From NCBI RefSeq assembly GCF_003967015.1, contig NZ_AP017560.1, positions 3,160,048-3,224,047 of the forward strand: a stretch of 64,000 nt of DNA. Direction: 5' to 3'. This document shows, piece by piece, positions 10,463 to 60,555 of the stretch. A program made the position numbers and the translations under genes. Each line of letters opens with the position of its first letter. Position 1 is the first letter of the stretch. A model generated the notes under the pieces. That model did not search any database. It was not told the DNA's origin and worked only from the letters and a program-made list of their open reading frames with translations. The DNA is from Pseudanabaena sp. ABRG5-3. Lineage in GTDB: Bacteria > Cyanobacteriota > Cyanobacteriia > Pseudanabaenales > Pseudanabaenaceae.

Positions 10463-10507
10463 TAGTATCAGGATGGGCGACACTAAGTGCCGTCCATCCT
10501 GATACTA
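10463..10507. repeat. Intergenic palindrome
   Basis: A 14-bp perfect outer stem (10463-10476 with 10494-10507) continues inward through a G-T pair to a small TAA loop. It lies in the 239-bp gap between the TPR gene and the M16 gene and is not adjacent to a stop codon. Confidence 0.75.
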
Positions 10508-10624
10508 ATTTAAAGTTATACCAATTTAGGGAGGTGTTGTTACAACCTCCTCAAATCAAGTTCTTGTTAGCTGAATTAAAAAAATACACATCGACAGAAT
10601 TTGCGAGGCAAAACCGTTCGATAT

Positions 10625-11653
10625 TTACAATCTTTCTAGTTCCTGCAATTTGTAATAAGCTTCTCGCAGGGGCAAGCTTGTATTATCTCCTAGCATAGCA
10701 GCAAAATCATAGGACTCTTGGTACGCAGCGCGTGCTTTTGGCAGATTTCCAAAAGATAGGTACAAATCACCTAGATATCGCTGCACGATCGAGGCGGTTT
10801 CGCGATCACCCATTACCAAAGCCAAGCTAGATCGGTTTTGCAATAGCTCTTCAATGCGATAGAAGTTAGGCACTTCGAGATAAGCAGCAATAATGCGATC
10901 GCTAGCTACCGACATCAGTTTGTAATTGCGATGTTGGCGAGCGATCGTCAGTGCCATGCCATAGTCGGTGATGGCAGCTTTGTAGTTGTCCAAAGCCATC
11001 AAACTATCGCCACTATTGACGTATGTATAGCCTTCTCCGATCGCTTCACGGATGGGATGCACTTTAATCGATGCGTAATATTGTTTGAGAGCTTCTAAAT
11101 GATTGCCATAGCGCTCTGCAATTAAACCTTTGTTATTTAAAGCGATCGCTGTATTCAGCCCTTGCTCGTTTTGGGTAGATAGCTCAAGGGTTGCCTTGTT
11201 TAGTTTTGAGGCAGATTCTAACTTGCCTTGAGCAATCTCAAAACTTACTAAGTTATTCGAGCTTTCGAGCTTTGCCCCATTATCTTGCAAAGTATTGGCA
11301 TAGCCGATGCGCTGACGACTGGTATCTTGAGCCGCATTGCTTGCCCCCAGTAATTCATAGGCATCACTCACTCGCGCCAGAGTATAGGAAATTGCGGCTT
11401 GGTCATTAACGCGCCGATAGTAACCGATCGCATAGAGCCAAGTTTTAATTGCTTCTCGGGGTTTGCCGTCCTTAAGTTGCGTATAGCCAACATCCAACAA
11501 GCGATCGGCTTCATCTCGTACCGCCCGATTTTCGGGATTGATCGTTACTTGTTGTGACTGCATTGGCATTGGCACTACGATCGCCCCAACAAAGGCTGCC
11601 AAAATCGTCGCCCCAATGTTAGCAACCGACATTTTCTGACGCTTTCTATACAT
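10625..11653 (-). CDS. Tetratricopeptide-repeat protein with N-terminal export signal
   Basis: 342 aa. Residues 1-34 have a basic start (MYRKRQK) and a hydrophobic stretch (GATILAAFVGAIVVP) that reads as a signal peptide or membrane anchor. The rest is made of helical TPR units, for example ADRLLDVGYTQLKDGKPREA, NNKGLIAERYGNHLEALKQY and YLGDLYLSFGNLPKARAAYQ. TPR proteins are scaffolds for complexes; the partner is unknown. An internal ATG 21 nt downstream is a possible alternative start. The gene is monocistronic. Confidence 0.8.
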   Translation of the reverse strand: MYRKRQKMSVANIGATILAAFVGAIVVPMPMQSQQVTINPENRAVRDEADRLLDVGYTQLKDGKPREAIKTWLYAIGYYRRVNDQAAISYTLARVSDAYELLGASNAAQDTSRQRIGYANTLQDNGAKLESSNNLVSFEIAQGKLESASKLNKATLELSTQNEQGLNTAIALNNKGLIAERYGNHLEALKQYYASIKVHPIREAIGEGYTYVNSGDSLMALDNYKAAITDYGMALTIARQHRNYKLMSVASDRIIAAYLEVPNFYRIEELLQNRSSLALVMGDRETASIVQRYLGDLYLSFGNLPKARAAYQESYDFAAMLGDNTSLPLREAYYKLQELERL

Positions 11654-11744
11654 ATCCCTACATCCTCACCAATAAGGTGGACATATTGTAGCGACATAAA
11701 AGCAGTTTTTTCTAGAAGTTTTCTGACTTTTTATGACATAACTC

Positions 11745-11781
11745 ACATGGATGAGTAGCGCTTCGCGCTACTCATCCATGT
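11745..11781. repeat. Intergenic palindrome
   Basis: A 17-bp perfect stem with a 3-nt TTC loop and a GCGC core. It lies between the divergent TPR and Uma2 genes, where no terminator is needed, so it is better read as a repeat element. Confidence 0.8.
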
Positions 11782-11826
11782 AATAAGGCTTTGGTATAAT
11801 TTAGGCTAAGCATTTTGAGGAAATCT

Positions 11827-12465
11827 ATGATTACACTCACACAGCCAAGATCTGATTCAGAAATATCCCAAGAAACGAATCTAGAACTAAATTTTGACCA
11901 GTTTTTGGCGCAATGTCCTGAAGATGGTCGCTATGAATTAGTGGACGGCAAAATGGTAAAAATCTTAGCAACCAGAATTCATTACGATGTTGCTTGGCTA
12001 ATTTTGAAAAGCTTTGACCGAGAGATTGACCGTTTAAATTTAAACTACGTGGTTAATGACGTGGCGGCAGTTTTAACCACAAATAAGAAAGGTAAAGAAC
12101 AGGGCAGACATCCAGATGTCAGCGTAATTAATCGCGATCTGTGGCGTAGCGATCGCCTTGATCATCGGGGTATTCGAGAACCAATTCAGCTTGCCGTTGA
12201 GGTGGTGTCAACGAATTGGGAAGATGACTATATTGACAAGCTTGATGAATACGAGCGTTTAGGCATCCCTGAATATTGGATTGTGGATTATTTAGCGATC
12301 GGTTCGCGCAACTATTTGGGAGAACCAAAACTTCCTTCTGTGCTGATATTTACCCTAGATGCTGAAAGGAAATATCAAATGACCAGATTTCAAAATAGCG
12401 ATCGCCTAATTTCCGCAACATTTCCAGAATTAAATCTCACCGTCGAGCAGATTATGGCGGCTTAA
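11827..12465 (+). CDS. Uma2 family (DUF820) endonuclease-like protein
   Basis: About 212 aa from the ATG at 11827, which has a GAGG ribosome site 6 nt upstream; the TTG at 11815 is less likely. The Uma2 fold is a PD-(D/E)xK restriction-endonuclease relative very common in cyanobacteria. Visible family marks are FLAQCPEDGRYELVDGKMVK at the start, the acidic HPDVSVI and the core LAVEVVSTN...DDYIDKLDEYERLGIPEYWIVD. The biological role of these genes is not settled. A second member of the family lies at 30575-31138. An AT-rich gap with a palindrome lies upstream. Confidence 0.85.
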   Translation: MITLTQPRSDSEISQETNLELNFDQFLAQCPEDGRYELVDGKMVKILATRIHYDVAWLILKSFDREIDRLNLNYVVNDVAAVLTTNKKGKEQGRHPDVSVINRDLWRSDRLDHRGIREPIQLAVEVVSTNWEDDYIDKLDEYERLGIPEYWIVDYLAIGSRNYLGEPKLPSVLIFTLDAERKYQMTRFQNSDRLISATFPELNLTVEQIMAA

Positions 12466-12499
12466 ATCTAATGAGTGGCGACGCTTCGAGCTGTCCCCA

Positions 12500-13699
12500 T
12501 TAAGTCACGCTCAAAACCAATCCCTTGAGATAAGCACCTTCAGGATGAAAAATACTTGTAGGATGATCGGGGGGATGATTAAGATGATCCAAAATGCGAA
12601 TAGTCCGACCCGACTCGATCGCCGCCGCCGTCACTGCTCCTGTGAAATTCTCCACATTCACCACCTGCGAACAGGAAAAAGTAAAGAGCAATCCACCACT
12701 TTTTAGCTTAGACATCGCCTGTAAATTTAAGCGCTTGTATGCCTGCATAGCTGAATGTCTCGCGGATAAACTTTTGGCAAAAGCGGGAGGGTCAAGCACG
12801 ATCGCCTCATAATCAGAGTCGCATTGCTTTAAAAAATCAAAGACATCACCTGTAAAGGATTTGTGAATAGCTTGGCGATCGCGATCAAAATTTGCAGCAA
12901 TATTGCGCTCAGTCCATTCCATCGCCTTCGCTGAACTATCAATCGAATGTACTTCCTTTGCGCCTGCCGCCACTGCATAAACCGAGAAACCACCCGAATA
13001 GCAGAAGGTATTTAAAACCTTTTTACTAGTCGCATACTTCCCAAACATTCGTCGATTTTCTCTTTGATCTAAGAAAAATCCTGTTTTCTGACCTTTTTCC
13101 CAATCGACAATAAAGCGATGTCCATATTCCAAAACTTCCGCACTATCAACAGATTTTTCGCCAATCAATAAACCATCCTGAGACTGGGTTTGTGATTTGC
13201 GCGAAAGCGTCGCCGAGCTTTTGTCATATACAGCAACTAAGCGATCGCCATAGATATCCTTCAAGATTTCCGCAATGTCCTGACGATAGCGATAGGTTCC
13301 TAACGAATGACACTGCAAAACCGCCGTATCACCATACACATCAATAATTAATCCTGCTAAGCCATCCCCTTCGGAATTAATCAACCGATAGCAATTAGTT
13401 TCAGGATTATCGATTAAGCCTAATTGTTGTCTTAAAAAAAAAGCTTGCTTCAGGCGATCGCGCAATAAACTCTGCATCGACTCCACAGGCTGAAACGATA
13501 GCACCTTAATCGCAATGCTACCCATGCCCCACAAGCCGATCGCTAAAAATCTGCCATCCTCGCTATAGGCTTCAACTAAATCGCCATCATGAACTTCTCC
13601 TTGCATTTTGGCGATCGCACCTGAAAAGATCCAAGGATGAAAACGCTGAACCGCATCGACTTTTTTACGATGAATAATCGCACGGGGCAACGATGGCAT
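12500..13699 (-). CDS. rlmI: 23S rRNA (cytosine-5-)-methyltransferase RlmI
   Basis: 399 aa, close to the usual length. The N-terminal PUA domain (residues 1-75, ending GLWGMGSIAIKVLSF) is followed by the linker motif GQKTGFFLDQRENRR and a Rossmann SAM-binding domain (NTFCYSGGFSVYAVAAGA). Catalytic motifs are LDPPAFAKS and FSCSQVVN with the nucleophilic cysteine. RlmI methylates C1962 of 23S rRNA in E. coli. It stands alone, convergent with the Uma2 gene. Confidence 0.9.
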   Translation of the reverse strand: MPSLPRAIIHRKKVDAVQRFHPWIFSGAIAKMQGEVHDGDLVEAYSEDGRFLAIGLWGMGSIAIKVLSFQPVESMQSLLRDRLKQAFFLRQQLGLIDNPETNCYRLINSEGDGLAGLIIDVYGDTAVLQCHSLGTYRYRQDIAEILKDIYGDRLVAVYDKSSATLSRKSQTQSQDGLLIGEKSVDSAEVLEYGHRFIVDWEKGQKTGFFLDQRENRRMFGKYATSKKVLNTFCYSGGFSVYAVAAGAKEVHSIDSSAKAMEWTERNIAANFDRDRQAIHKSFTGDVFDFLKQCDSDYEAIVLDPPAFAKSLSARHSAMQAYKRLNLQAMSKLKSGGLLFTFSCSQVVNVENFTGAVTAAAIESGRTIRILDHLNHPPDHPTSIFHPEGAYLKGLVLSVT

Positions 13700-13760
13700 A
13701 GCTAATTACTTTAATTTACACAGGTTTTTAACCATAGCATAAGTAGCTACACTCCAATAA

Positions 13761-13894
13761 CTGTGGCGCGTGCGCCACAGACAAATCAAAGCCCAAATAT
13801 CGTGAGGCGGAGCTTCCGCTCCGCCTCACGATATTTGGGCTTCATGTCCTCAAGAATGGCAACAGCTATAAAAGCAGTGCTAAGCGCTGCTTTT
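13761..13894. repeat. Cluster of three palindromes upstream of fur
   Basis: Three palindromes are seen: a 9-bp stem at 13761-13780 (CTGTGGCGC arms); a 23-bp perfect stem at 13791-13840 with GCCCAAATATCG outer arms and a TTCC loop; and an imperfect 11-bp stem at 13870-13894. A segment at 13846-13870 (TGTCCT ... CAGCTATA) matches segments at 19265-19292 and 32021-32048, so part of this region belongs to a dispersed element. Confidence 0.8.
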
Positions 13895-13935
13895 AATTAT
13901 GCTATTCTCAAGAAGCTATCGTTATTGATAATGCT

Positions 13936-14397: not shown

Positions 14398-14404
14398 ATG
14401 ATTT

Positions 14405-14866: not shown

Positions 14867-14958
14867 TGGATAATAGTTAATTGTTAATAATTGTTATCTA
14901 TACCAATCATATCCCAGATTTCGTATAGGAAAGAAAGCCCCCAAAAGGTTGAATTTTA

Positions 14959-14993
14959 AAGAGGGGTACGGCGCAAAGCGCCGCACCCCTCTT
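14959..14993. repeat. Intergenic palindrome
   Basis: A 16-bp stem with one mismatch and an AAA loop, with a CGGCGC core of the type found in many other palindromes of the window. Confidence 0.75.
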
Positions 14994-15005
14994 CTGGGGT
15001 TTAAA

Positions 15006-15064
15006 ACCTGAGAAGAATATGAATGACAGCGCGAATCGCGCTGTCATTCATATTCTTCTCAGGT
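15006..15064. repeat. 28-bp perfect palindrome
   Basis: The left arm 15006-15033 pairs perfectly with 15037-15064 around a 3-nt AAT loop; the centre is a GCGCG/CGCGC core. It is one of the two longest perfect stems in the window and lies upstream of mreB, not at a gene end. Confidence 0.9.
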
Positions 15065-19191: not shown

Positions 19192-19293
19192 GTATAGCTG
19201 ACATAAAACCCAAGAAGAGAATGGCGGCGCGAAGCGCCGCCATTCTCTTCTTGGGTTTTGATTTTGTCCTGATACAAGCGACAGCAGCTATAC
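19192..19293. repeat. Palindromic element with TATAGCTG ends
   Basis: A 26-bp perfect stem (19205-19230 with 19234-19259, AAAACCCAAG outer arms, GGCGC core, GAA loop) sits inside outer inverted repeats GTATAGCTG (19192-19200) and CAGCTATAC (19285-19293). The right flank (TTTTGATTTTGTCCT) recurs at 32013-32025. This layout is that of a miniature mobile or REP-like element. Confidence 0.8.
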
Positions 19294-19591: not shown

Positions 19592-19618
19592 AAAGCTCAC
19601 CCTAAGGGTGAGCTTTTT
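19592..19618 (+). terminator. Rho-independent terminator of ndhO
   Basis: An 11-bp stem with a TAA loop followed by TTTTT, starting 8 nt after the ndhO stop. Confidence 0.9.
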
Positions 19619-20357: not shown

Positions 20358-20378
20358 CTAAGTTGCGATCATTAAATA

Positions 20379-20594
20379 TCACGCATGGTAATTTGCCTGT
20401 CTTACTGCTTCAACTTCATGATTAATATCTTCTAAACTAATTTCATCAGTTTGAACTGAATTCAAAAACTTCTTGAATCTCACAGAGAACGTATCTTTTT
20501 TTAGTAACTGTAATAATTCTAGTTTTTCTTCTAGATTACATTGATAGATTACTACTTTAAGTTGAGAAAAATCTATAGAAATTGATACATTCAT
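20379..20594 (-). CDS. Small protein resembling a type II antitoxin (orphan)
   Basis: 71 aa. The C-terminal pattern DEISLEDINHEVEAVRQANY is one I recognise from small cyanobacterial antitoxin-like proteins that usually precede a PIN toxin. The first half is a strand followed by a Leu/Lys-rich helix (EEKLELLQLLKKD). No toxin gene follows; downstream is the end of surE. It may act in trans, be the remnant of a pair, or be unrelated. It is divergent from the putative nuclease gene at 20778. Confidence 0.55.
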   Translation of the reverse strand: MNVSISIDFSQLKVVIYQCNLEEKLELLQLLKKDTFSVRFKKFLNSVQTDEISLEDINHEVEAVRQANYHA

Positions 20595-20777
20595 GTTTAA
20601 TACTCTATAAGAATTTACTAATAGTTTGCCATACGAACTCTGGCAAAAGTAAGTAGTAATCTAGCTATACCTATAAAATATTGCAAAGAATCACAAATAA
20701 AATATTTTTGTGACTATTTTCTGTATAATATCAGCATTCTGGAATCGTATTTATTGCAAGCTTAAAAATTATAAAAT

Positions 20778-21842
20778 ATGCCAAAATCTATATTTTCGCA
20801 ATATAAACAGGGGGAAAATCGTGTTACAGCTAGTATTCTTGCAGTTTTTGAAAAAATTTCTTTTAGACTCGTTGAGAAAATTCTACAAATTTTATTTGAA
20901 GATACCAACCAATCCGTTTTAACATTTAAGAATCAAGTAAAGCACAAAGATAGTGTTCCTGACGCTCGTATTCATGCATCCTTCACCTATTTACTAGAAA
21001 CTAAGGTTGTACCAATACTAAACAATAGCGCAGCACAAGAACAATTGAGAAATCACATCAAAGTTTTAGAAGGGGAATCAACCAAACATAAACGTCTTCT
21101 CGTTTTAACTCCTGATCGTGAATTCCCAGAAATTATTACAGAAGTTATTAAGCAGACTGGTTCCGATTTAATACGATGGTCTAGTTTTAATGCTCTCTAT
21201 GAAGCGATTCGAGAAGTCACTGCCAGTAATATTCTTTCAGAAGAACGTACATCTTGGCTAGAATCAGATCTGCCAATGGTGACTGAGCAAGAAAGATTTT
21301 TACTCCGTGAATTAGTTCAAATGCTGTTTGCTGAAAGATTAATTGGGACTGACTATGGTGACTCTGTTCTAGTTGTAGCTGCTAGAGGGGCAATCAAAGA
21401 ATATAGAGATTTTTCAGTATATCTATGTCAGCCTAACCGAACTTTTCGTTCAGTTCCTTATATCGCGTTTTATCATAGGGGAAAAATTGATCGACATATT
21501 GCAAAGATTCTAGAAAAGCCCATTGAGGAAGTTGTCCTCAACCAAGAAGGAATTGAGAGTGTCACAGATTTAACCTATGAAACAAAGCAAAAGCTTTTTA
21601 AGCTTATAGAGAAAATGGAAGAGAAATCAAGTCCTCGATTCAAAGATAATTTACCTTATAAGGTTTTCTTTCTATCTGAACCTAACGATCAGACAAAAAC
21701 GATCATCCTTGATCATGATATCAAAAATGATCTTGTGAATGAATCAGGACAATCTTTCCCTTTTACATATGGACAGAGATATGTTTCACTTGAGGCATTC
21801 AAGAGGAATCCTAAAACTACAACAAAATTGCTCAGAGGATAA
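20778..21842 (+). CDS. Hypothetical protein with PD...ExK nuclease signature
   Basis: 354 aa. It begins FSQYKQGENRVTASILAVFE, an N-terminal pattern seen in uncharacterised proteins with a restriction-endonuclease-like core. The pattern PDARI (residues 61-65) followed twelve residues after the Asp by E74-T-K76 in a hydrophobic strand (YLLETKVVPI) matches the PD-(D/E)xK metal site. The rest (about 270 residues) is mixed alpha/beta with no domain I recognise. The gene is AT-rich, has no HIP1 and stands alone beside an antitoxin-like gene, which suggests a mobile defence gene. Nuclease function is inference. Confidence 0.6.
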   Translation: MPKSIFSQYKQGENRVTASILAVFEKISFRLVEKILQILFEDTNQSVLTFKNQVKHKDSVPDARIHASFTYLLETKVVPILNNSAAQEQLRNHIKVLEGESTKHKRLLVLTPDREFPEIITEVIKQTGSDLIRWSSFNALYEAIREVTASNILSEERTSWLESDLPMVTEQERFLLRELVQMLFAERLIGTDYGDSVLVVAARGAIKEYRDFSVYLCQPNRTFRSVPYIAFYHRGKIDRHIAKILEKPIEEVVLNQEGIESVTDLTYETKQKLFKLIEKMEEKSSPRFKDNLPYKVFFLSEPNDQTKTIILDHDIKNDLVNESGQSFPFTYGQRYVSLEAFKRNPKTTTKLLRG

Positions 21843-21939
21843 TTAATTTCAGTCTCTTAGACCTTACGCAATTCTAACGAATTCACTAAATTTGGTGAGG
21901 ACTTTGCCTGCATCAAATCTCCATGCTGCATAGTTTCTA

Positions 21940-22452: not shown

Positions 22453-22483
22453 ATTGTGACCCCGCCTTTGGCGGGGTCACAAT
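22453..22483. repeat. Intergenic palindrome, CCCCGCC type
   Basis: A 14-bp perfect stem with a TTT loop. The arms (ATTGTGACCCCGCC) and the right flank CAATCCTCTAAT closely match the palindrome at 48593-48629. Confidence 0.85.
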
Positions 22484-22530: not shown

Positions 22531-22583
22531 AAACCCAAAACAAAAGTAGCGGCGCGAAGCGCCGCTACTTTTGTTTTGGGTTT
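22531..22583. repeat. 25-bp perfect palindrome, AAACCC-armed
   Basis: The left arm 22531-22555 pairs with 22559-22583 around a GAA loop, with a GGCGC core. Outer arms AAACCCAAAAC are shared with the elements at 19205 and 54083. It ends 10 bp from the stop codon of the minus-strand WD40 gene, so it could also work as its terminator. Confidence 0.85.
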
Positions 22584-26061: not shown

Positions 26062-26129
26062 TATTTATGATGTATAGCAGTTTGCGCCAGACATGCTCAA
26101 TTTTTTAACTTCCCAAATATTTTTATACT

Positions 26130-26221
26130 AATTCTAAAAATGGCTACGCCATTTTTAGAATTAAAAAACCTTGCTGGGGTTGGTTTTTAATTCCCAGAAG
26201 TGTAGTCACACTTCTGGGAAT
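26130..26221. repeat. Two adjacent intergenic palindromes
   Basis: A 15-bp perfect stem at 26130-26162 (ATTCTAAAAATGGC arms, TAC loop) and a 14-bp stem at 26190-26221 (AGTC loop). The first is closely related to the palindrome at 51261-51291. They separate the kinase gene from the WD40 gene. Confidence 0.85.
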
Positions 26222-28275: not shown

Positions 28276-28308
28276 TTTTTGTGGCGTGGCTTTGCCGCGC
28301 CACAAAAA
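28276..28308. repeat. Palindrome of the GTGGCGCGGC family
   Basis: A 15-bp stem with one G-T pair and a TTT loop. The core and the right flank TCGGTTCCTTAG match the elements at 39568-39658 and 44355-44435. It lies 22 bp beyond the mdh stop. Confidence 0.8.
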
Positions 28309-31158: not shown

Positions 31159-31866
31159 CTACTTTTGCAAAACTAATATTCCCATCATGCCATTGGCGAT
31201 CGCATAGTGGGTAGCAAGAGGAAAACCTGCGGCTTTGGCGAGTTTAACCTGCTCAGAACCAATCGGAAATCTCGCTAAACTCGGCGCAATATAGGCATAT
31301 TCGGCAGTCATCGAGAAACGATCAGCTAGTGGCACAACTACTCGATCCAGATAAAAGTCTTGAAAAGTTTGCATCAGGCGATCGCTAGGACGATGAAAGT
31401 CAAGAATTGCGGCTTTAGCTCCAGTTTTTAAGACTCGATGTAACTCCGATAGACATTGCGGGATATTGGTCACATTACGTAACCCATAGGCTAGGGTCGC
31501 TCCATCAAAGCTATTGTCGGCAAAGGGCAAATTCAATACATTCCCCTCTTGCCATGTCAGACTTTTTTGGATTTTTGGTAAATAATTACGCGCTTTGTCC
31601 GCCGCGATCGCTAAAAGTTCTTTAGAAAAATCCACACCGATCACTTGCCCCGTCGGTGCGACTTTTTGCGCGAGCAGAGCGGTCATATCTCCAGATCCAC
31701 AACAGAGATCGAGCCATGTTTCTCCTCGCTTTGGCTCACACCAGCGCAATGCCATTTTTTTCCAGATGCGATGTTGACCTAAACTAAGGAGATCATTGAA
31801 GCGATCATAAACTGGCGCAATGCGATCGAAAATCTGTTGGACATCAGTTTCCGAAGGTTGAGACAT
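31159..31866 (-). CDS. menG: Demethylphylloquinone / menaquinone methyltransferase
   Basis: About 235 aa from the ATG at 31866 (MSQPSETDVQQIFDRIAPVY); the frame is open a further 55 codons upstream but that part is not family-like and crosses palindromes. SAM-binding motif I is WLDLCCGSGDMTALLA, followed by GVDFSKELL and the UbiE/MenG signature LAYGLRNVTNIPQCLSE. In cyanobacteria this enzyme adds the last methyl group to phylloquinone, the photosystem I electron carrier. UbiE-type plastoquinone methylation is less likely. Confidence 0.92.
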   Translation of the reverse strand: MSQPSETDVQQIFDRIAPVYDRFNDLLSLGQHRIWKKMALRWCEPKRGETWLDLCCGSGDMTALLAQKVAPTGQVIGVDFSKELLAIAADKARNYLPKIQKSLTWQEGNVLNLPFADNSFDGATLAYGLRNVTNIPQCLSELHRVLKTGAKAAILDFHRPSDRLMQTFQDFYLDRVVVPLADRFSMTAEYAYIAPSLARFPIGSEQVKLAKAAGFPLATHYAIANGMMGILVLQK

Positions 31867-31936
31867 GGTTTTACCTAAAACTTTTACCGAAGAGTTACAG
31901 AGATCATCATAATGCGAGGGTGTCTTCCTCATTAAA

Positions 31937-32048
31937 GATAAAGGGCAGCGCGTTGCGCTGCTCTTTATCGCTGTTATAGAGAGTTGTGGTGCTTTTTGCA
32001 CCGCAACTCTCTTTTGATTTTGTCCTAACATGAATGGCGACAGCTATA
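31937..32048. repeat. Two palindromes and dispersed-element flank upstream of menG
   Basis: A 15-bp stem at 31937-31969 (one G-T pair, GCGC core) and a 15-bp stem at 31978-32012 (one G-T pair) are followed by TTTTGATTTTGTCCT and CAGCTATA (to 32048). The latter part repeats the right end of the 19192-19293 element and of 13846-13870. Confidence 0.8.
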
Positions 32049-38236: not shown

Positions 38237-38265
38237 TTTTAAATTTTGCTTCGCAAAATTTAAAA
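38237..38265. repeat. Palindrome between the DUF3038 and DUF4335 genes
   Basis: A 13-bp perfect stem (TTTTAAATTTTGC arms) with a TTC loop starts 2 nt after the DUF3038 stop. It fills most of the 41-bp gap inside a presumed operon. Confidence 0.85.
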
Positions 38266-39568: not shown

Positions 39569-39658
39569 GGGACATGCAGGAAAATAAGGAACCAAATTTT
39601 TGTGGTGCGGCTTCGCCGCACCACAAAAATTTGGTTCCTTATTAAATCTCAGAACCCT
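39568..39658. repeat. 91-bp palindromic element with 29-bp stem, copy 1
   Basis: The perfect stem 39583-39611 / 39615-39643 (loop TTC) is the longest in the window. The flanks AGGGACATGCAGGA on one side and CAGAACCCT on the other recur in the element at 44355-44435. It begins at the last base of the DUF4335 stop codon, so it lies where a terminator would. Confidence 0.92.
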
Positions 39659-41011: not shown

Positions 41012-41329
41012 AACTAACATCTCCAACTAACGATGGAATTAGTGAATCTATAGAATGAAGTCTCAACTGACTACGAATATAATGCTCATAATTTCAGCAT
41101 TTTAGGAATTAATGAGTCTATATTTAGATATTACTTAAAGTTATAATTTTTCAACTATAACCTAATTCTGTAAAGCAACTAGTGTGATTAAGAATACAGA
41201 TATTAGGTAAACATTGAATGGAACTAAAATATATAATAGCGCTTATAAAAGGCTTTTACTAAATAGGTTTCTTTATTTAACAAATCAATATACAGAGATA
41301 AGATCTTTTGCTTTTTATAAAACCCAAAT

Positions 41330-41480
41330 AAACAAAGGCGGCGCAAAGCGCCGCCTTTGTTTAACACCAGTTCGGGTTAAGATGGCAAATTTTAAAAGCC
41401 CAAAAGTAAAAGCCTTGCTACGCAAGGCTTTTACTTTTGGGCTTTGAGAGAGGGTTTGCGTAGCAAACCCTCTCTCAAAG
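41330..41480. repeat. Three consecutive palindromes, two overlapping
   Basis: Stems are 15 bp at 41330-41362 (GGCGGCGC core, AAA loop, AAACCCAA just to the left), 24 bp at 41395-41445 (TAC loop) and 18 bp at 41442-41480 (GTA loop). The last two share the bases CTTT, so only one can form at a time. CTACGCAAG and TGCGTAGCA centres differ from the other families. Confidence 0.9.
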
Positions 41481-41616
41481 CCAGTTTCAAATTATCTCGA
41501 ACTCGCGTTTGTTTATTTTCAGTGCAGGATATACATGAGTAGAAGCTTATTTCAATTCTTTAAGTTAAGACATTCATGACTTCTATCCCCTATAGCAAAT
41601 CTGAAATTATTTCTAA

Positions 41617-41651
41617 AAAAAGAGAGGAGTAAATTTCACTCCTCTCTTTTT
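41617..41651 (-). terminator. Terminator of the FHA gene
   Basis: A 14-bp perfect stem with a 7-nt loop and a T-run on the minus strand, 27 nt past the stop of the FHA gene. Confidence 0.85.
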
Positions 41652-44273: not shown

Positions 44274-44306
44274 TAGTAAAGGTGGCACTTCGTACCACCT
44301 TTACTA
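44274..44306. repeat. Intergenic palindrome
   Basis: A 12-bp perfect outer stem (TAGTAAAGGTGG arms), one mismatch, then two pairs around a TTC loop. It lies between the receiver gene and the cyclase gene. Confidence 0.8.
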
Positions 44307-44354: not shown

Positions 44355-44435
44355 AGGGTTCTGCGATTTAATTTTTTGTGGCGCGGCTTTGCCGCGCCAC
44401 AAAAAATCGGTTCCTTATTTTCCTGCATGTCCCTA
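44355..44435. repeat. 81-bp palindromic element, copy 2 (reverse orientation)
   Basis: A 17-bp perfect stem (44371-44387 / 44391-44407, TTT loop) with flanks matching the element at 39568-39658 in reverse: AGGGTTCT at one end and CCTGCATGTCCCT at the other. Compared with that copy it lacks the outer TTGGTTCCTTA arm on one side. It starts 1 nt past the stop codon of the cyclase gene, in the same orientation relative to the gene as copy 1. Confidence 0.9.
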
Positions 44436-45909: not shown

Positions 45910-46254
45910 AGGTTAAGAATTGTATAGTTGTAACATTGAGATGGGTATAGCTTCGCACTGCCTATTCTAATCATAATAACTAACAAAATAGAAGCAATCG
46001 CCATAATGCTTAGAAAGCTATTCAGCCCTTGGTTATGAACCTTAGATGTTCACGATTCATTGAGAAATATAAAACCCTAAAAGCTGTGGCGCACGCGCAG
46101 CGTGCGCCACAGCTTTTAGTTCTGTTTTTTTAATAGCGATCGCTTAGGATAAATAGCTGAATTTTCGTTGGGGAAACGTTTATTGAGCTTACCTTTGCTA
46201 GACTGAGTTTAACTCTTGAGACATACTACAAATAAGGAATCGGGTAAGTTTAAT
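45910..46254. other. Divergent gap between the cyclase and vWA genes
   Basis: A 345-bp gap that must contain the promoters of both divergent genes. It holds the 19-bp palindrome at 46077-46119 and one HIP1-like site near 46137. No small gene is seen. Confidence 0.6.
46077..46119. repeat. Intergenic palindrome, GTGGCGCACG type
   Basis: A 19-bp perfect stem with a 5-nt loop. The left flank AAAACCCTAA and the CTGTGGCGCACG part of the arm are shared with the palindrome at 54083-54135. Confidence 0.88.
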
Positions 46255-47145
46255 ATGCCTTACTCAGCAGAGATCAGTCGTCGCCAACCTAGTTGTTTTC
46301 TCTTCTTAATCGATCAATCAGGATCGATGGCAGACGCATTTTCTAGCGAAAGTGCAAGCAAGGGGACAGCGAAAGGAGCAAATGAAAGCTTGCACAAAAC
46401 GAGTGAATCTATTCAAAAGGCGCAGGCAGTTGCCGATGCGGTCAATCGTTTGCTTGACTCCCTTGGACAGCGATGTGTTAAAGGTAACGAGATTTACGAT
46501 TATTTTGATGTGGGCGTAATCGGATACAACAGCGAAGTTGCCTCAGCACTCAATGGGGTAGCTGGTGATCAAGTGATTGCTCCGATTGGGAAAATCTACG
46601 AAAATCCGACCGAACTAGAAAAACGTGCTCAAAAATTACCCGATGGCATGGGTGGTTTGGTCGAAGTGTATAACGACTTCCCAATTTGGTTTAAACCAGT
46701 GGCAAGCGGTGGTACAGCAATGTGTAGCGTGTTTGCGATGGCGCGTATCCTTTTAGAAGATTGGATTGAGAAACATCCCAATAGCTACCCACCAACGATT
46801 ATCAATATTACCGATGGTGAATCTACCGATGGCAATCCTACGGAAGAAGCGATGAATCTCAAAAAGTTGAGTACTTCCGACGGCTCTGTTTTACTTTATA
46901 ACATCCACCTTTCCGCAGAATATACTCAGCCCGTATCATTCCCTAATACGGTAGAAGTATTGAGCGATCCCTATGCGCGTTTAATGTTTGAGCTATCAAG
47001 CCCTTTACCCTATGCTGCTCAAAAAGCAGCTGAAAAAGAGGGTTATAAGATAGCTCCTGATGCCAGAGCTTTTATGTTTAATGCCGATCCTGTCAAACTA
47101 ATTCAGTTTCTAGACATCGGGACTCGCACTGAAAATCTCAGATAA
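46255..47145 (+). CDS. von Willebrand factor A domain protein
   Basis: About 296 aa from the ATG at 46255; a TTG at 46216 would extend it by 13. The vWA domain spans most of the protein with LFLIDQSGSMADAF, the Thr in ASGGTAMCS and Asp in INITDGESTDG, so the metal site is complete. It has an insert rich in Ser, Lys and Ala just after the first motif. Similar single-domain vWA proteins lie beside kinase or tellurium-resistance-type genes. It is a paralogue in function, not a close copy, of the vWA gene at 42547. Confidence 0.87.
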   Translation: MPYSAEISRRQPSCFLFLIDQSGSMADAFSSESASKGTAKGANESLHKTSESIQKAQAVADAVNRLLDSLGQRCVKGNEIYDYFDVGVIGYNSEVASALNGVAGDQVIAPIGKIYENPTELEKRAQKLPDGMGGLVEVYNDFPIWFKPVASGGTAMCSVFAMARILLEDWIEKHPNSYPPTIINITDGESTDGNPTEEAMNLKKLSTSDGSVLLYNIHLSAEYTQPVSFPNTVEVLSDPYARLMFELSSPLPYAAQKAAEKEGYKIAPDARAFMFNADPVKLIQFLDIGTRTENLR

Positions 47146-47190
47146 AAGATAAATAAAGTGGCGCAATGCGCCACTTTATTTATCTTTTAT
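47142..47190. terminator. Bidirectional terminator that includes both stop codons
   Basis: A 23-bp perfect stem (47142-47164 / 47168-47190, AAT loop, GTGGCGC core). The stop codon of the vWA gene (47143-47145) and that of the minus-strand RlpA gene (47187-47189) both lie inside the arms, so one palindrome ends both convergent genes. Confidence 0.9.
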
Positions 47191-48500: not shown

Positions 48501-48555
48501 ATGGTTATAGGAATTTCCAAAATGGCAATGTCATTTTGGAAATTCCTATAACCAT
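48501..48555. repeat. 24-bp palindrome
   Basis: A perfect 24-bp stem (48501-48524 / 48532-48555) with a 7-nt loop; the inner part CCAAAATG / CATTTTGG resembles the palindromes at 26130 and 51261. Confidence 0.88.
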
Positions 48556-48592: not shown

Positions 48593-48629
48593 AGGATTGT
48601 GTCCCCGCCAAAGGCGGGGACACAATCCT
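48593..48629. repeat. 17-bp palindrome, CCCCGCC type
   Basis: A perfect 17-bp stem with an AAA loop. The arms and the right flank CAATCCTGTAAT match the palindrome at 22453-22483. Confidence 0.88.
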
Positions 48630-48889
48630 GTAATTCACTAGATTGGTATACGCTATATGAGTGATCTTCAGGGGGCGATCGCGAAAATACTGGTCAAGTC
48701 GAGAAAAGCCCACTGATATGACAGATGCTCCCCATCTAGAGAGGGTTTTACAGCAAGTCCAGCAATTTTGCGGATGTTGAGTCAATTAGCTAGTTGCTAC
48801 GATTATTTAATGTCTCGGATAATTCCTCTATAGCGTGGATTGCTAACTAAAAACTGGCGATGCCCGCTATTTTTATTTTGTTGGGCATA

Positions 48890-48942
48890 ATTAAAAGCCT
48901 ATGGCACACACATGTGCAGAGTGTGTGCCATAGGCTTTTAAT
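48890..48942. repeat. 22-bp palindrome abutting the DnaJ gene stop
   Basis: A perfect 22-bp stem (48890-48911 / 48921-48942) with a 9-nt loop. It touches the stop codon of the minus-strand gene and probably terminates it. Confidence 0.88.
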
Positions 48943-49797
48943 TTAGCTATAGATAACCCCATTGGGCATAATCGCTCCCTTGAGATTAACATTGGTCAGC
49001 TTAACCATTATTTTTTCGCCAAATCCAACCTTTGCCCCACTCAAATCTGCCCCACTCAAATCTGCCCCACTCAAATCTGCCCCAATTAAGTTAGCTCCAC
49101 GTAGATCCGCATTTTGTAAATTCGCTTGAAATAGATTTGCCCTAAATAGATTTGCCCCCTGCAAATTTGCGCCCTGAAAATTGACACGGTGCAGGAAGGC
49201 ATCGGTCAAATCAGCATTACTAAGATTGGCATAGCTCAGATTTCGACCTTCAAGATATTTCTCGCGTAAATTTGCTCCACGGAAATCAGCTCCAGTTAAA
49301 TCACTTTTATGTTGACGTTTTTGGGAATCTGAGGAGGAGGAGTGAGTGGATTGAGATGACTGTTGTTTGCTGGTTTGCTGACTTGACTGGTGAGACTGAT
49401 AGGCTTGATAGGTATGAGATTGCGATCGCGATTGATAGGAGTAATGACGTTCCGAAGTGCGCTCTGATGTATGGTCTGATGCTTTTTGCTGAGCGTAACC
49501 TTGATAGGCACTTTGGTATTTACTGTGATATTTCGTTTGGTGTTGATGAGTTTGTTTATTTTGATGCGAATATCTTTGTGAGCCTGATTCTTTCTGCTCA
49601 GCAGCTTTTCGCAAGCTATCCCTTGCATGGTTAATTTCTTTGAGCTTTTCCTGTGCTTGTAGTTGCAGTTGCACATTCTCTCTGGGGATGCGATCAGGAT
49701 GCCATTGCATAGCCAGCGCTTTATAAGCCTTGTTGACATCTTCTAAGGTCGCGTTAGATGTCAAACCGAAGAGTTGGTAGCATTGATCGATTTCCAT
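48943..49797 (-). CDS. DnaJ-domain protein fused to pentapeptide repeats
   Basis: About 284 aa from the ATG at 49797. A J domain lies at residues 1-65 with the HPD motif in AMQWHPDRIPRE. Next comes a linker of about 90 residues made almost only of Gln, Ser, His, Tyr and Lys, then about 110 residues of pentapeptide repeats (A(D/N)LxG: ADFRGANLREKYLEGRNLSY, ADLSGADLSGADLSG). The repeats form a right-handed helix that mimics DNA or acts as a scaffold. The J domain should recruit Hsp70. Four ADLSG units are near-identical at base level, which points to recent slippage. Confidence 0.9.
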   Translation of the reverse strand: MEIDQCYQLFGLTSNATLEDVNKAYKALAMQWHPDRIPRENVQLQLQAQEKLKEINHARDSLRKAAEQKESGSQRYSHQNKQTHQHQTKYHSKYQSAYQGYAQQKASDHTSERTSERHYSYQSRSQSHTYQAYQSHQSSQQTSKQQSSQSTHSSSSDSQKRQHKSDLTGADFRGANLREKYLEGRNLSYANLSNADLTDAFLHRVNFQGANLQGANLFRANLFQANLQNADLRGANLIGADLSGADLSGADLSGAKVGFGEKIMVKLTNVNLKGAIMPNGVIYS

Positions 49798-51008: not shown

Positions 51009-51157
51009 GAATTTAGTTGAGCTGATTATTTTTAATGATTGAAATGTAATGATGTGTCCTAAGCACAGCACATTATCCTTTACAGTTACTTATACCAATT
51101 CACTGAAGTGGGCTAACACTTCAGTAAATTACAGCAGTTTTTGATCAAAAGAACCAC

Positions 51158-51206
51158 AAGAAAATTTTTAAAAGCGTTGCTTTGCAACGCTTTTAAAAAT
51201 TTTCTT
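51158..51206. repeat. 23-bp palindrome, copy 1 of the ACAGCACTTTG family
   Basis: A perfect 23-bp stem with a TTT loop; the left flank AACCAC and right flank GGTTCTGG are partly paired. Its flank in reverse (ACAGCACTTTGCGCT, near 51218-51233) also precedes the palindrome at 52630. Confidence 0.88.
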
Positions 51207-51260
51207 GGTTCTGGTTTGAGCGCAAAGTGCTGTAAAAAACAAACCCAGTAAGGTTTTGAG

Positions 51261-51291
51261 ATTCCAAAAATGGCGTTGCCATTTTTGGAAT
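51261..51291. repeat. Palindrome of the AAAAATGGC type
   Basis: A perfect 14-bp stem (ATTCCAAAAATGGC arms, GTT loop) followed by TAGTATTAA, 6 bp from the stop codon of the diguanylate cyclase gene. It is close in sequence to the 26130-26162 palindrome. Confidence 0.85.
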
Positions 51292-51296
51292 TAGTA

Positions 51297-52391: not shown

Positions 52392-52788
52392 GGAAATCAC
52401 AAAAAGTATCAGTTTAAGAAGCTGCTTAAAATTCTCAAATATATCAAGATGAGATACTTTAATTAAAATAAAAAAATATATTGTGTTGAAGATGCTGCTT
52501 TTCTAAACTTTCAACAAAAATATAGTGATTAATCCCAGTTTCTTATTCTTAACTGCGGCGAGAATTTCATAATATTTTTTAAGCACTATAACTTACGCAT
52601 TTACAGCACTTTGTGCTTTCTCAAAATCTAAGAAATTTTTTGAAAGTGCTGCAAAGCAACACTTTCAAAAAATTTCTTGCACTACATAAATCTGAAAAAG
52701 AGGCTGTAACGTGACTTAGATACAGCCATTTACGCCGTGCTTTGCAAGGTGCAAATGACGGAAAATGGTAAGAAGTACTTGATGCTTC
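52392..52788. other. Gene-free gap between EamA and GGDEF genes
   Basis: A 397-bp AT-rich gap. It holds the palindrome at 52630-52678 and the EamA terminator at its right end. No small gene is seen. Confidence 0.65.
52630..52678. repeat. Palindrome, copy 2 of the ACAGCACTTTG family
   Basis: A perfect 19-bp outer stem with an imperfect GCAAAGC centre. The 30 bp to the left (ACAGCACTTTGTGCT near 52602) correspond to the right flank of the 51158 copy in reverse. Confidence 0.85.
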
Positions 52789-52800
52789 TTACCATTTTCC
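52760..52800 (-). terminator. Terminator overlapping the EamA stop codon
   Basis: A perfect 16-bp stem (52760-52775 / 52785-52800) with a 9-nt loop. The last codons of the EamA gene (GGA AAA TGG TAA) form the 5' arm. Confidence 0.85.
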
Positions 52801-53889
52801 GCGTTCATCAAACTGACGTTCATTGATTAGGGATTCATTTACAGGTTGCTGCAAAATTGGCAAAGCTGAACTAACTGCCACTTGCTCAGCCGCAGTCAAA
52901 ATTTTAGATTCCGTAATTGTTTCAGATTTGGAATTTGCTTCACTGCTATCTGATTCTGAGCCACGTACACTGACGAGATAAATACTCGTTAGCGTCAAAA
53001 TCACCCCAATCCATTGCACTAAAGTCAAGTTTTCACCGAGAAAGAGACTGCTAAACATCAGCGCAAATACTGGTGTCGAGAAGGTTAAGGCACTCAGGGT
53101 GGTCAAACTACCCGATGAGGCAAAAAAGAAAAATAATCCATAGGCGATCGCACTACCCATAATCGCCATATATGCCATCCCTAACCATCCCCAAGCACTC
53201 ACATCCTGCCATTGATTTTGCTCGATTTGATTGGAAATGAATAATAAAGGTAAGCCTCCAATAATCATGTGCCAACCCGTCGCCATCACAGGATCAGCAT
53301 GGCGAACTACGGGACGGATTAAAATTGTACCGATCGCCATTGACAAGGATGCACCGAGCATAAACCACTCACCGAGGGTAAACACTCCTGCCTCTAAGAT
53401 TGTGGCAAAGTCGCCAGCTAGCAATGCTGTCATAAGCTCCGACGGCAACCCAATTAAGCCAATACCAATTACTCCCACCAATAAACCAAGGGTTGCGCCA
53501 ATACCAATTTTCTCTTTATATAAAACCGCCGCTAGTACTGCAACCGCTAGAGGCTGCGAGTCAATTAATAATGAACCAAGTCCCGCATTGGTACGTACCA
53601 AACCCTGCGCTAAAAATCCCTGAAACATAGTCCCATCAACCAAGGCAAACAAGCTAATCCATAACCACGCTTGCCAACCTTTAGGCTGATTTCTGCCAAA
53701 ATAAGCCCCACCCAAAATCAGTAACCCCCCCGCAGGAAGTAATCTTACTGCTGCCATAAACATGGGACTAGTTTGAGGCAACAAAGCCTTCATCACGACC
53801 ATCGCCGTTCCCCAAAGAAAAAATGGTGCAATTACGAGGGGAGACTGACGATTTAGCTCATTGGTACTAGCTGGCGTGGATGACTGCAT
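52789..53889 (-). CDS. EamA family (DMT) transporter
   Basis: 366 aa. Ten predicted membrane helices in two EamA repeats: residues about 15-150 (PFFLWGTAMVVMKALLPQTS) and 165-310 (GEWFMLGASLSMAIGTILIR, ending FLGENLTLVQWIGVILTLTS). The C-terminal 55 residues are polar and Ser/Glu-rich, longer than usual. Members export metabolites such as amino acids or take up small solutes; the substrate cannot be read from sequence. Confidence 0.87.
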   Translation of the reverse strand: MQSSTPASTNELNRQSPLVIAPFFLWGTAMVVMKALLPQTSPMFMAAVRLLPAGGLLILGGAYFGRNQPKGWQAWLWISLFALVDGTMFQGFLAQGLVRTNAGLGSLLIDSQPLAVAVLAAVLYKEKIGIGATLGLLVGVIGIGLIGLPSELMTALLAGDFATILEAGVFTLGEWFMLGASLSMAIGTILIRPVVRHADPVMATGWHMIIGGLPLLFISNQIEQNQWQDVSAWGWLGMAYMAIMGSAIAYGLFFFFASSGSLTTLSALTFSTPVFALMFSSLFLGENLTLVQWIGVILTLTSIYLVSVRGSESDSSEANSKSETITESKILTAAEQVAVSSALPILQQPVNESLINERQFDERGKW

Positions 53890-54082: not shown

Positions 54083-54135
54083 AAACCCAAAAACCTGTGG
54101 CGCACGCTGCGCGTGCGCCACAGGTTTTTGGGTTT
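54083..54135. repeat. 25-bp palindrome, AAACCC-armed
   Basis: A perfect 25-bp stem (54083-54107 / 54111-54135) with a TGC loop. Outer arms AAACCCAAAA match those at 19205 and 22531; the inner part CTGTGGCGCACG matches 46077-46119. Confidence 0.92.
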
Positions 54136-54899: not shown

Positions 54900-54933
54900 A
54901 AAAGAGGAAGCGCATAGCACTTCCTCTTTTTTT
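54900..54933 (+). terminator. Rho-independent terminator of the HU gene
   Basis: An 11-bp stem (AAAAGAGGAAG arms) with a 9-nt loop followed by a T-run of seven, 25 nt past the stop. Confidence 0.88.
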
Positions 54934-54966
54934 GTTTTAACTCTTGCAGCAGAGCGTCAAAATAGC

Positions 54967-58366: not shown

Positions 58367-58370
58367 ATTC

Positions 58371-58403
58371 TAGAGAGAGCGACGCAAAGCGACGCTCTCT
58401 CTA
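58371..58403. repeat. Palindrome between rpoB and rpoC1
   Basis: An 11-bp outer stem (TAGAGAGAGCG arms) with one mismatch, then a 3-bp inner stem around AAA. It begins 4 nt after the rpoB stop, within an operon where full termination would be harmful. Confidence 0.85.
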
Positions 58404-58480
58404 GGCAAATCATGAATAATGTTTTGCATTTTTCTTTACATAAGCATTAAGCACGCAATCAATTAAGGACGTTGTAACGT

Positions 58481-60517
58481 ATGGCGAAAGTGGAACAGCG
58501 ATTTGACTATGTCAAGATTGGCTTGGCATCACCCGATCGCATTCGTAAATGGGGCGAACGAGTTCTACCAAATGGCAGTTTGGTTGGTGAAGTCACAAAA
58601 CCTGAAACAATTAACTACCGCACACTCAAGCCAGAAATGGATGGCTTATTCTGTGAGCGGATTTTTGGTCCTGCTAAGGACTGGGAATGTCATTGTGGCA
58701 AATATAAGCGTGTGCGCCATCGTGGTATTGTTTGCGAACGTTGCGGTGTAGAAGTTACGGAGTCGCGAGTACGCCGTCACCGCATGGGCTTCATTAAGCT
58801 AGCCGCTTCGGTTACCCATGTATGGTATCTCAAGGGTATCCCTAGCTATATGGCAACCCTACTCGATATGCCTTTACGTGATGTCGAGCAAATCGTTTAC
58901 TTTAACGCCTACGTTGTCCTCAATCCTGGGATTGAAACTGAGGTGGATGGTGTTGTTGTATCCGTCAATAGTCGTGAGATTCGCATTCGTGGCATTGATG
59001 GCGTAGAACGCGCCCACCTACTACATCCTAAGCATGTGCCAACGGTTCATGAGAATCAAGTAGTTGAGGCTGGGGAGGCGATCGCCAGTGCCTATAACCT
59101 CTCTTATAAGCAATTGCTTTCTGAGGATCAGTGGATCGATCTTGAAGATCAAATCTATGCTGAAGATCCTGTTTTAGATGGTATTGAAGTTGGTATTGGC
59201 GCTGAAGCAATTAAGCAATTATTGCAAAATATCAATCTTGAAAAAGAGGCGGAGCGTCTCCGTACTGATATTGAAAACTCCAAGGGGCAAAAACGTGCCA
59301 AATTAATCAAGCGTTTGCGCGTAGTTGATAACTTTGTAGCGACTGGTTCTAAGCCCGACTGGATGGTATTGGATGTAATTCCTGTGATTCCGCCAGACTT
59401 GCGTCCGATGGTGCAGCTTGATGGTGGACGTTTCGCTACCAGCGACTTGAATGATCTTTACCGTCGCGTGATCAACCGTAACAACCGTTTAGCACGCTTA
59501 CAGGAAATTCTTGCTCCTGAAATCATCGTCCGTAACGAAAAGCGGATGTTGCAAGAAGCAGTAGATGCTTTGATCGATAACGGTCGTCGCGGTCGTACCG
59601 TAGTTGGCGCAAATAATCGTCCCCTCAAGTCTCTCTCGGACATTATCGAAGGTAAGCAAGGTCGTTTCCGTCAAAACTTGCTCGGTAAACGGGTTGATTA
59701 CTCTGGTCGTTCCGTCATCGTGGTGGGTCCAAATCTCAAGATTCACCAATGTGGTCTGCCTAAGGAAATGGCGATCGAGCTATTCCAGCCCTTTGTGATT
59801 CACCGATTGATCAAAACAGGCTTGGTAAACAATATTAAAGCTGCGAAGAAACTGATTCAGCGTAATGATCCAGCCGTTTGGGATGTACTCGAAGATGTGA
59901 TCCGCGAACACCCCGTCATGCTGAACCGCGCTCCGACGCTTCACCGTTTGGGTATTCAAGCCTTTGAACCATTGCTAGTTAGTGGTCGTGCGATCCAATT
60001 GCATCCCCTCGTTTGTCCTGCATTTAACGCCGACTTTGACGGTGACCAAATGGCGGTTCACGTACCTTTATCTATTGAAGCCCAGGCTGAAGCCCGTTTA
60101 CTGATGCTGGCTTCTAACAACATCCTTTCGCCTGCCACAGGTCGTCCAATTGTTACACCTAGCCAAGATATGGTTTTAGGCTGTTACTATCTCACTACCG
60201 AAAATCCCTATACCCAGAGGGGTGAAGGACGTTACTTCGCCAATTTCAATGATGTGGTAATGGCATACGAACAGAAGGAAATCGATATTCATTCCAGTGT
60301 ATGGGTACGCTTTGAAGGCATTATCGAAGGTCAGGGTGAAGAGAAAGACAGCGAAGAACCTAAGGTTACGATTTTAGAGGATGGTACTAAGGTTAAGGAA
60401 TTTCCATTCCGCCGTATTCGTGAAGATGCTGAAGGTGGATTAATTTCGCAGTATGTCAAAACTACCCCTGGGCGTGTGATTTTCAATCAGGCAATTTACG
60501 CATCGCTGGCTAGTTAA
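58481..60517 (+). CDS. rpoC1: DNA-directed RNA polymerase subunit gamma (beta-prime N-terminal part)
   Basis: 678 aa, longer than the roughly 620-630 aa of the family as I know it. The zinc site ([20 protein letters not shown]) and the catalytic triad [12 protein letters not shown] are intact. The extra length is mainly residues about 151-205, between [10 protein letters not shown] and [13 protein letters not shown], where related proteins have only a few residues. The insert is rich in Val and Ile with [18 protein letters not shown] and [16 protein letters not shown], as in a small beta-barrel. In cyanobacteria the split gene is a lineage mark. Confidence 0.98.
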
Positions 60518-60520
60518 ATG

Positions 60521-60555
60521 TTATGAAAAATAGTATAAAACACTATTTTTCATAA
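60521..60555. repeat. Palindrome between rpoC1 and rpoC2
   Basis: A perfect 14-bp, AT-rich stem (TTATGAAAAATAGT arms) with a 7-nt loop starting 3 nt after the rpoC1 stop. Confidence 0.85.

Follow-up and report, generated by a model that had tools for sequence, protein, structure and literature searches.

Concerted change of hairpin arms in mobile and gene-end palindromes of Pseudanabaena, probably maintained by template switching

The small dispersed repeats of Nostoc described by Elhai (2008) are said to be 21-27 nt long, with predicted hairpins and compensatory change, and van Noort (2003) is reportedly a study of template switching, also called quasipalindrome correction. Here, we analyze a 64-kb stretch of DNA (the window) in the 5.66 Mb genome of Pseudanabaena sp. 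ABRG5-3, which is strewn with long, mostly perfect palindromes. Both kinds of sequence are short, dispersed, and cyanobacterial, but the elements analyzed here are about 90-150 bp in length and carry terminal inverted repeats (TIRs).

Template switching between the arms of inverted repeats has been described (PMC8604942, PMC8794818) and, in the pertinent part of PMC8604942, shares with the present case the homogenization of arms, compensatory changes, and exact inversion of the spacer, including the GAA/TTC type. What sets the present case apart is that it involves about 100 comparable intergenic hairpins in one bacterial species pair, with an estimated rate of about 50 times that of substitution, and that the stems are not more conserved than their flanks; the same part of that source, citing Lavi 2018, has the short inverted repeats of proteobacteria more conserved than their surroundings. 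Prokaryotic miniature inverted-repeat transposable elements (MITEs), as covered in the pertinent part of PMC10969869, where Nezha is cited as a MITE of cyanobacteria, resemble the elements found here in size, the absence of a long open reading frame (ORF), TIRs, flanking direct repeats, empty sites in a sister genome, and the presence of one candidate partner insertion sequence. They differ in that the interior here is a long, mostly perfect palindrome, variable between copies and yet paired, and in that several unrelated families of ends have the same build. The intrinsic terminators of cyanobacteria, in the portion of PMC13289151 that deals with them, are likewise GC-rich hairpins just past stop codons with T-rich ends, although the stems here are symmetric, often at least 14 bp long, and perfect, and are known from sequence alone; according to that portion, only 22% of the transcription units of Synechococcus elongatus end at intrinsic terminators. 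MITEs, terminators, and template switching are all known kinds, and it is the extent of a known mechanism that looks undescribed here. The high load of hairpin-cored MITE families in the genus, a subject on which no paper appeared among the matches listed for Pseudanabaena, or for the broader topic, in the open-access literature, looks new, as does a quantitative case for covariation that is largely DNA-level.

The reading that we favor, with a probability of about 0.74 for its two parts jointly, is that the palindromes comprise the hairpin cores of several short MITE families and a second, terminator-like set at gene ends, many of its members single-copy, and that, in both sets, template switching keeps the arms complementary. 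During replication, one arm would serve as the template for the other, a new mutation in one arm would be removed or else passed on to the partner arm, and now and then the switch would invert the spacer. When one arm is repeatedly copied onto the other, matching changes in the arms arise without the need for selection on structure.

The scan of the window for inverted repeats (stem score of at least 10, loop of up to 10) returned 37 (Table 1), of which 35 overlap positions 10463-60555; three first-order (dinucleotide) simulated controls contained 1, 0, and 2. The stems span 11-29 bp, 28 are perfect, and 21 enclose a 3-nt loop, in agreement with an earlier, sequence-only reading of the window, which had noted more than 30 such palindromes in intergenic gaps. 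Their placement was noted correctly as well: the slightly stricter finder behind the positional list gave 36 repeats, the centers of which all lie between hand-kept ORFs once the start of a UbiE-like ORF is moved inward, with overlaps of 3-12 bp at the ORF ends in a few cases. The examples singled out as being far from stop codons (11745, 13789, 15006) do sit in divergent gaps, and the suspicion that the palindromes are more than terminators is justified by the many that are MITE-like, with filled and empty sites. The shared centers are present but fewer than had been stated, with GCGC-NNN-GCGC in 7 of the 37 repeats and TGGC-NNN-GCCA in 2, counted by eye. In 460 kb of the genome, 171 repeats reach a score of at least 14 (158 perfect; longest stem, 50 bp) compared to none in one simulated sequence; three further 100-kb blocks hold 18, 34, and 38 repeats.

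Compensatory change in the hairpin arms, which the sequence-only reading had surmised from stems that differ in sequence while staying intact, is real and is borne out by orthologous hairpins in the sister genome (G002), which is collinear with the window, with aligned pieces 91-97% identical. The comparison took in gapless orthologous hairpins with at least 70% identity, that is, 106 of the 259 that could be anchored (133 of 392 were unanchored). Among the 1884 stem pairs of the 106 hairpins detected in the Pseudanabaena genome itself (G000), 1720 are the same in both genomes, 61 show Watson-Crick changes in both arms, and 103 are paired in one genome only, 85 of these having been lost in G002 by a one-arm change, 3 by change of both bases, and 15 the reverse; 14 pairs are unpaired in both. 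Control pairs drawn from the flanks, where 491 of the 7810 sites differ, yielded just 24 both-arm Watson-Crick changes in 10017, and for the 103 hairpins detected in G002, the respective values are 66 of 1862 and 13 of 9856; because the control pairs overlap one another, p-values derived from them are approximate. Among 64 three-base loops on the G000 side, 15 are exactly inverted in the sister (12 AAA/TTT, 2 GAA/TTC, and 1 GTA/TAC), 19 are changed otherwise, and 30 are the same, and from the G002 side, 14 of 48 are inverted. Joint change of the arms far above the independent expectation and exact inversion of the spacer are both found, and from these, we infer template switching to be the agent of both-arm change.

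Per site, divergence is 6.2% in stems and 6.3% in flanks on the G000 side, and 6.6% and 6.1%, respectively, on the G002 side. If evolution is neutral and a mutation in one arm is as likely to be erased as to be copied across, one-arm mismatches are predicted to make up 6.1% of pairs on the G000 side and 5.1% on the G002 side, and the observed shares are 5.5% and 5.6%; the fitted ratio of the correction rate to the substitution rate is 53 (bootstrap, 32-95) and 69 (40-161), respectively. With both-arm changes more than 10 times as frequent as in the control and stems diverging like flanks, the pattern is the one that DNA-level arm copying predicts, and since stems keep pace with their flanks and neutral copying fits the proportion of one-arm to both-arm changes, structural selection is not required for the comparable hairpins.

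The division of the palindromes into two populations emerges from their sequences and their gene context. In an all-against-all comparison of 418 repeats (score of at least 14) from 1.16 Mb, 229 are linked into one network by sequence similarity, cores included, and 157 are singletons; when the flanks are compared from the outside in, 148 of the 418 are assigned to the 14 flank communities shown. The recurrent ends are TATAGC...AGGAC in family A, AAGTAG.TGGGC..AATTAAA in family B, AACGTCAGTTCGGGTTAA / CGCGAGTTCGGGATAAT in family C, ATACCAATT in family D, and TTACAGC in family E, with families F, G, and others in addition, and the members of a family have the same ends but differing cores. Gene context was determined over 860 kb, with genes taken as greedy longest-ORF calls rather than curated annotation. 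The repeats that belong to families lean mildly to gene ends, with 20 in convergent gaps, 58 in tandem gaps, 24 in divergent gaps, and 8 in ORFs, compared to 13.5, 55.2, and 33.4 expected by bases for the three kinds of gap; their density per 10 kb is 12.7 in convergent and 6.2 in divergent gaps, and their median distance from a stop codon is 65 bp. For the repeats outside the flank communities, this median is 6 bp; 68 of these lie in the 127 convergent gaps, 109 in tandem gaps, 23 in divergent gaps, and 13 in ORFs, with densities per 10 kb of 43.3 in convergent and 5.9 in divergent gaps. These hairpins look like bidirectional terminators.

For the counts of T-tracts and pair changes, the single class consists of repeats in BLAST components of fewer than 5 (strictly, of 1) and, in some pair counts, also takes in uncompared repeats of score 12-13. 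Of the single-class hairpins that read out of a gene end, 56-67% have a T-rich 3' end, compared to 26% of intergenic 16-mers drawn at random. The non-gene strand and the repeated class carry T-tracts about as often, the range over both classes and both strands being 46-72%, so T-tracts do not separate the classes. GC-rich hairpins followed by a T-tract just past stop codons are nonetheless characteristic of the hairpins outside families or in the single class, and this gene-end set may well terminate transcription.

The families have the traits of MITEs, being short, non-coding, dispersed in many copies, and bounded by TIRs of about 20 bp (measured by eye). Direct repeats, seen by eye in a few cases, are 8-9 bp long in family C (e.g., TTATCTTTA) and of TA type in families A and B. 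Breaks in the alignment with G002 fall at hairpins in many cases, and filled and empty sites occur in both directions: sites filled in G000 include 51097-51295 (family E in family D) and 54083-54135 (family B), and insertions on the G002 side lie opposite 44275 and 48895. The element at 51097-51295 is a composite of 201 bp, nested and absent from the sister, which either arose by two successive insertions since the split or was lost as a whole. Over the 860 kb, the 259 anchored repeats (of 392) comprise 180 that are conserved in G002, 41 that have diverged, and 38 that are absent, and in the opposite direction, the 272 anchored repeats (of 421) comprise 180, 43, and 49, respectively; the counts of absences, obtained without an outgroup, mix insertion and loss. 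The proposal that the palindromes are REP/MITE-like is thereby upheld for MITEs, given the TIRs and the absent copies, although most of the anchored hairpins stay in place. At E<=1e-12, family C was detected in 12 of the 194 genomes of the class (own included), all from this genus, and was not found in 4 further genomes of the genus.

The search for partners of these families covered 24 transposase loci, namely, 12 of the 18 DDE_3 matches and 12 of the 45 DDE_Tnp_1 matches. A single locus among these, the DDE_3 (IS630-type) element L171:1026-1980, with two ORFs in different frames, has inward-facing ends like those of family A (TATAGC...TAGGACA); they are alike, not identical, differing at 6 of 28 columns at one end and at 5 of 29 at the other. 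Family A may have been moved by an IS630-type transposase, with the L171 element as a candidate partner.

A high density of palindromes is seen elsewhere in the genus as well. At the homologous locus, the 20 nearest loci, with relatives of the DUF3038 protein at 85-96% identity (16 named Pseudanabaena, 2 from uncultured cyanobacteria, 1 Phormidium, and 1 Oscillatoriales genome), hold 60 repeats in 218 kb, about 10-fold the density in 40 further cyanobacterial loci (53-63% identity), which hold 11 in 407 kb; the 16 loci named Pseudanabaena alone account for 50 in 181 kb. Most of the 40 other loci are richer in G+C, and the 4 with less than 46% G+C hold 2 repeats in 42 kb. Another genome, G188, contains 130 repeats of score at least 14 in 400 kb and is 87-91% identical to G181 where the two were compared. 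Loss of SbcCD, the usual hairpin nuclease, was considered as a cause of the palindrome load and ruled out: the genome has two SbcD matches that exceed the cut-off, as well as two long SbcC-like matches that lie below the cut-off of their model, which only 1 of 14 control genomes passes.

Paired changes might instead reflect structural selection at the RNA level, on terminators or 3'-end stabilizers, with one-arm mutations being deleterious and compensated by a second mutation. This explanation fits the crowding of the hairpins outside families near stop codons and in convergent gaps, the T-rich ends reading out of genes, and the paucity of one-arm mismatches in convergent compared with divergent gaps, but we consider it unlikely, because it predicts stems that evolve more slowly than flanks, and in the comparable set, the rates are equal. 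It also expects a route through G-U pairs, whereas one-arm mismatches in tandem gaps, read on the transcript strand, include 19 G-U, 16 A-C, and 14 other, with no clear excess of G-U; the double changes do not look wobble-mediated, and half of them are transversions (31 transitions and 30 transversions, compared to 306 and 185 in flanks). Nor does such selection account readily for T-tracts on the non-gene strand or for the 10 both-arm changes among 447 pairs of hairpins in coding or divergent contexts, and it offers no prediction of the exact inversion of spacers. Concerted change of the arms could also come from gene conversion or recombination between dispersed paralogous copies, swapping whole cores, and family members with common ends but different cores, as well as sites such as 11745-11781, where the sister has a wholly different perfect stem, could be taken to suggest as much. 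Yet, both-arm changes occur in hairpins without a similar copy in 1.16 Mb (22 of 800 pairs in 43 hairpins) as they do in repeated hairpins (24 of 570 pairs), and 51 of the 61 double changes are isolated single pairs, which makes such swapping quite improbable as their source.

As for the origin of the repeats, the abundance of small extragenic palindromes brings to mind the REP/REPIN systems, in which a Y1 HUH (RAYT) transposase mobilizes single-stranded hairpins. The REP half of the earlier proposal did not hold, however, and we regard this mode of mobilization as extremely improbable here: PF01797, which models this Y1 family, has no match in the genome, compared to matches in 5 of 14 control genomes; the insertions, with their TIRs and TA-like or 8-9 bp direct repeats, have by eye the appearance of DDE transposition; and no REP-type tag (GTAG, CGTC) was seen by eye at the family ends (TATAGC, AAGTAG, AACGTCAG, ATACCAATT etc.). 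The unknown enzyme that the sequence-only reading had envisaged as copying the hairpins is not needed either, given that the ends of one family resemble those of an IS630-type element. A dedicated, genus-specific enzyme that copies or inverts hairpins, for example, by cruciform cutting and re-ligation, beyond ordinary template switching, would be in keeping with the 10-fold difference in repeat density between the nearest and the other loci, but the G+C content of most of the latter is higher, and the changes match the known footprints of template switching, so that we see only a slim chance for such an enzyme.

Several points weigh against the combination of two populations and template switching that we favor. 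The requirement for gapless hairpins with at least 70% identity favors mild change; there is a single informative species pair, other pairs, taken from the homologous loci, having contributed just 3 hairpins that could be used, in which 2 of 49 pairs had changed in both arms; hairpins counted as single-copy may have copies in the remaining 4.5 Mb; and the lower share of transitions among double changes than in flanks is not significant (p=0.095). On the side of mobility, the 38 absent hairpins of 259 may reflect either insertion or loss, and in the searched stretches of G000 and G002, none of the families proved to have a partner element flanked by facing ends within 3.5 kb. Furthermore, one-arm mismatches affect 26 of 288 pairs in divergent gaps but only 17 of 449 in convergent gaps (p=0.004), so some selection on terminators is likely, and the integrity of terminator stems probably owes something to selection in addition to copying. 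Of the structural selection proposed in the sequence-only reading, this part probably stands, even if selection is not required for the set as a whole.

Covariation is commonly read as demonstrating that an RNA structure is functional, but here, both-arm changes exceed the control more than 10-fold in stems that diverge like their flanks. If template switching is confirmed as the agent, covariation-based annotation of RNA in such genomes will have to be judged against a null model at the DNA level, there will be a simple reason why perfect palindromes persist for so long, and a correction rate of about 50 times the substitution rate will be measurable in a culturable cyanobacterium. A stronger version, which we put forward tentatively and with some doubt, is that, in Pseudanabaena, unusually strong arm copying makes any palindrome, mobile or not, self-repairing, with stems that drift neutrally yet stay perfect; were this the case, covariation would arise without selection across the genus, and long palindromes would accumulate because they are unable to decay.

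Table 1. Hairpins and hairpin elements of the window (sister, genome G002; no similar copy, none within the 1.16 Mb compared)
Position	Structure	Setting or family	Sister and other genomes
799..850	22-bp stem, 2 mismatches	between two ORFs	symmetric indel, 4 bp per arm
4337..4361	11-bp perfect stem, 3-nt loop	3 bp from minus-strand ORF stop; terminator-like	absent from gap
10462..10508	23-bp stem, 2 mismatches	no similar copy	both mismatches paired; innermost pair T-G
11745..11781	17-bp perfect stem	divergent gap	different perfect stem; whole stem replaced
13789..13842	25-bp stem	family A MITE (TATAGC...AGGAC-type ends, by eye)	absent; gap has smaller hairpin
14959..14993	16-bp stem, 1 mismatch	upstream of mreB	identical 35/35
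15006..15064	29-bp perfect stem	upstream of mreB	identical 59/59
19205..19259	26-bp stem	family A MITE	copy shortened
19592..19616	12-bp stem	overlaps SurE-like ORF start	
22453..22483	14-bp stem, loop TTT	member of repeat network	loop GAG
22531..22583	25-bp stem, loop GAA	family A (A3-type) MITE	loop inverted to TTC
26129..26163	16-bp stem	one of two hairpins of family D element (ATACCAATT-type ends)	
26190..26221	14-bp stem	second hairpin of family D element at 26129	
28276..28308	15-bp stem	type H; arm sequence common with 39583 and 44371 (by eye)	
31937..31969	15-bp stem, 1 mismatch		perfect; C-G to T-A pair compensated
31978..32012	15-bp stem, 1 mismatch		outer arms longer
38237..38265	13-bp stem, loop TTC	3 bp from stop; terminator-like position	loop GAG
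39583..39643	29-bp perfect stem	type H; convergent gap	same stem, loop alone changed; 84-92% matches in other genomes of genus
41329..41363	16-bp stem	family A-type element; adjoining family C element appears to interrupt it	
41362..41509	~148 bp; two hairpins, 41395-41445 (stem 24) and GAGAGAGGGTTTGC hairpin	family C MITE	absent at that position; another C-type hairpin further along same gap
41617..41651	14-bp stem	no similar copy	
44274..44306	12-bp stem, 9-nt loop		insertion of family B MITE at hairpin edge
44371..44407	17-bp stem	type H	2 compensated pair changes
46077..46119	20-bp stem	family B core (GTGGCGCACGC)	family A hairpin in gap
47142..47190	24-bp perfect stem	spans both stop codons of convergent ORFs	perfect 18-bp stem, one compensated pair, unequal arm indels (8 and 1 bp)
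48501..48555	24-bp stem, 7-nt loop GCAATGT		loop ACATTGC (exact inversion); 1 compensated pair, 1 one-arm change
48593..48629	17-bp stem	type G	30-bp central hairpin absent
48889..48943	23-bp stem, 9-nt loop	B-like	extra two-hairpin element inserted at base
51097..51130	14-bp stem	first of two hairpins in family D element that family E divides	absent
51157..51207	24-bp perfect stem	nested family E MITE	absent
51261..51291	14-bp stem	other hairpin of family D element at 51097	absent
52630..52678	23-bp stem	family E-like core	family C element in its place
52759..52801	17-bp stem	repeated family; 12-bp overlap with end of EamA ORF	
54083..54135	25-bp perfect stem	family B MITE	absent
54900..54930	11-bp stem, 9-nt loop	divergent gap before rpoB	differs in loop bases only
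58370..58404	16-bp stem	4 bp past rpoB stop	other sequence
60521..60555	14-bp stem	4 bp past rpoC1-like stop; no similar copy	

Genes in the window include mreB, mreC, mreD, the DUF3038/DUF4335 genes, and rpoB, after which comes a separate rpoC1-like gene of 678 aa; no Rfam family at the gathering score and no tRNA was found in the window. A 1.58-kb stretch, 20358-21938, is absent from G002, which has 25 bases in its place, and includes a 354-aa ORF (20778-21842) without a match in Pfam (E<=1e-5) or NCBIfam (E<=0.01). The hairpins at 31937-31969 and 31978-32012, which are also present in the sister, fall within the N-terminal extension of the UbiE-like ORF 31159-32031, overlapping its first residues, and the domain match starts at residue 60; the ORF therefore probably begins further in. 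The pair of hairpins at 14959-15064 is unchanged in the sister, and yet the surrounding aligned block differs by about 4%; these hairpins, which lie upstream of mreB, are possibly regulatory. In the gap between rpoB and the rpoC1-like gene (58374-58455), G002 lacks the hairpin and has several short repeats resembling TTAGCTATTAGC.

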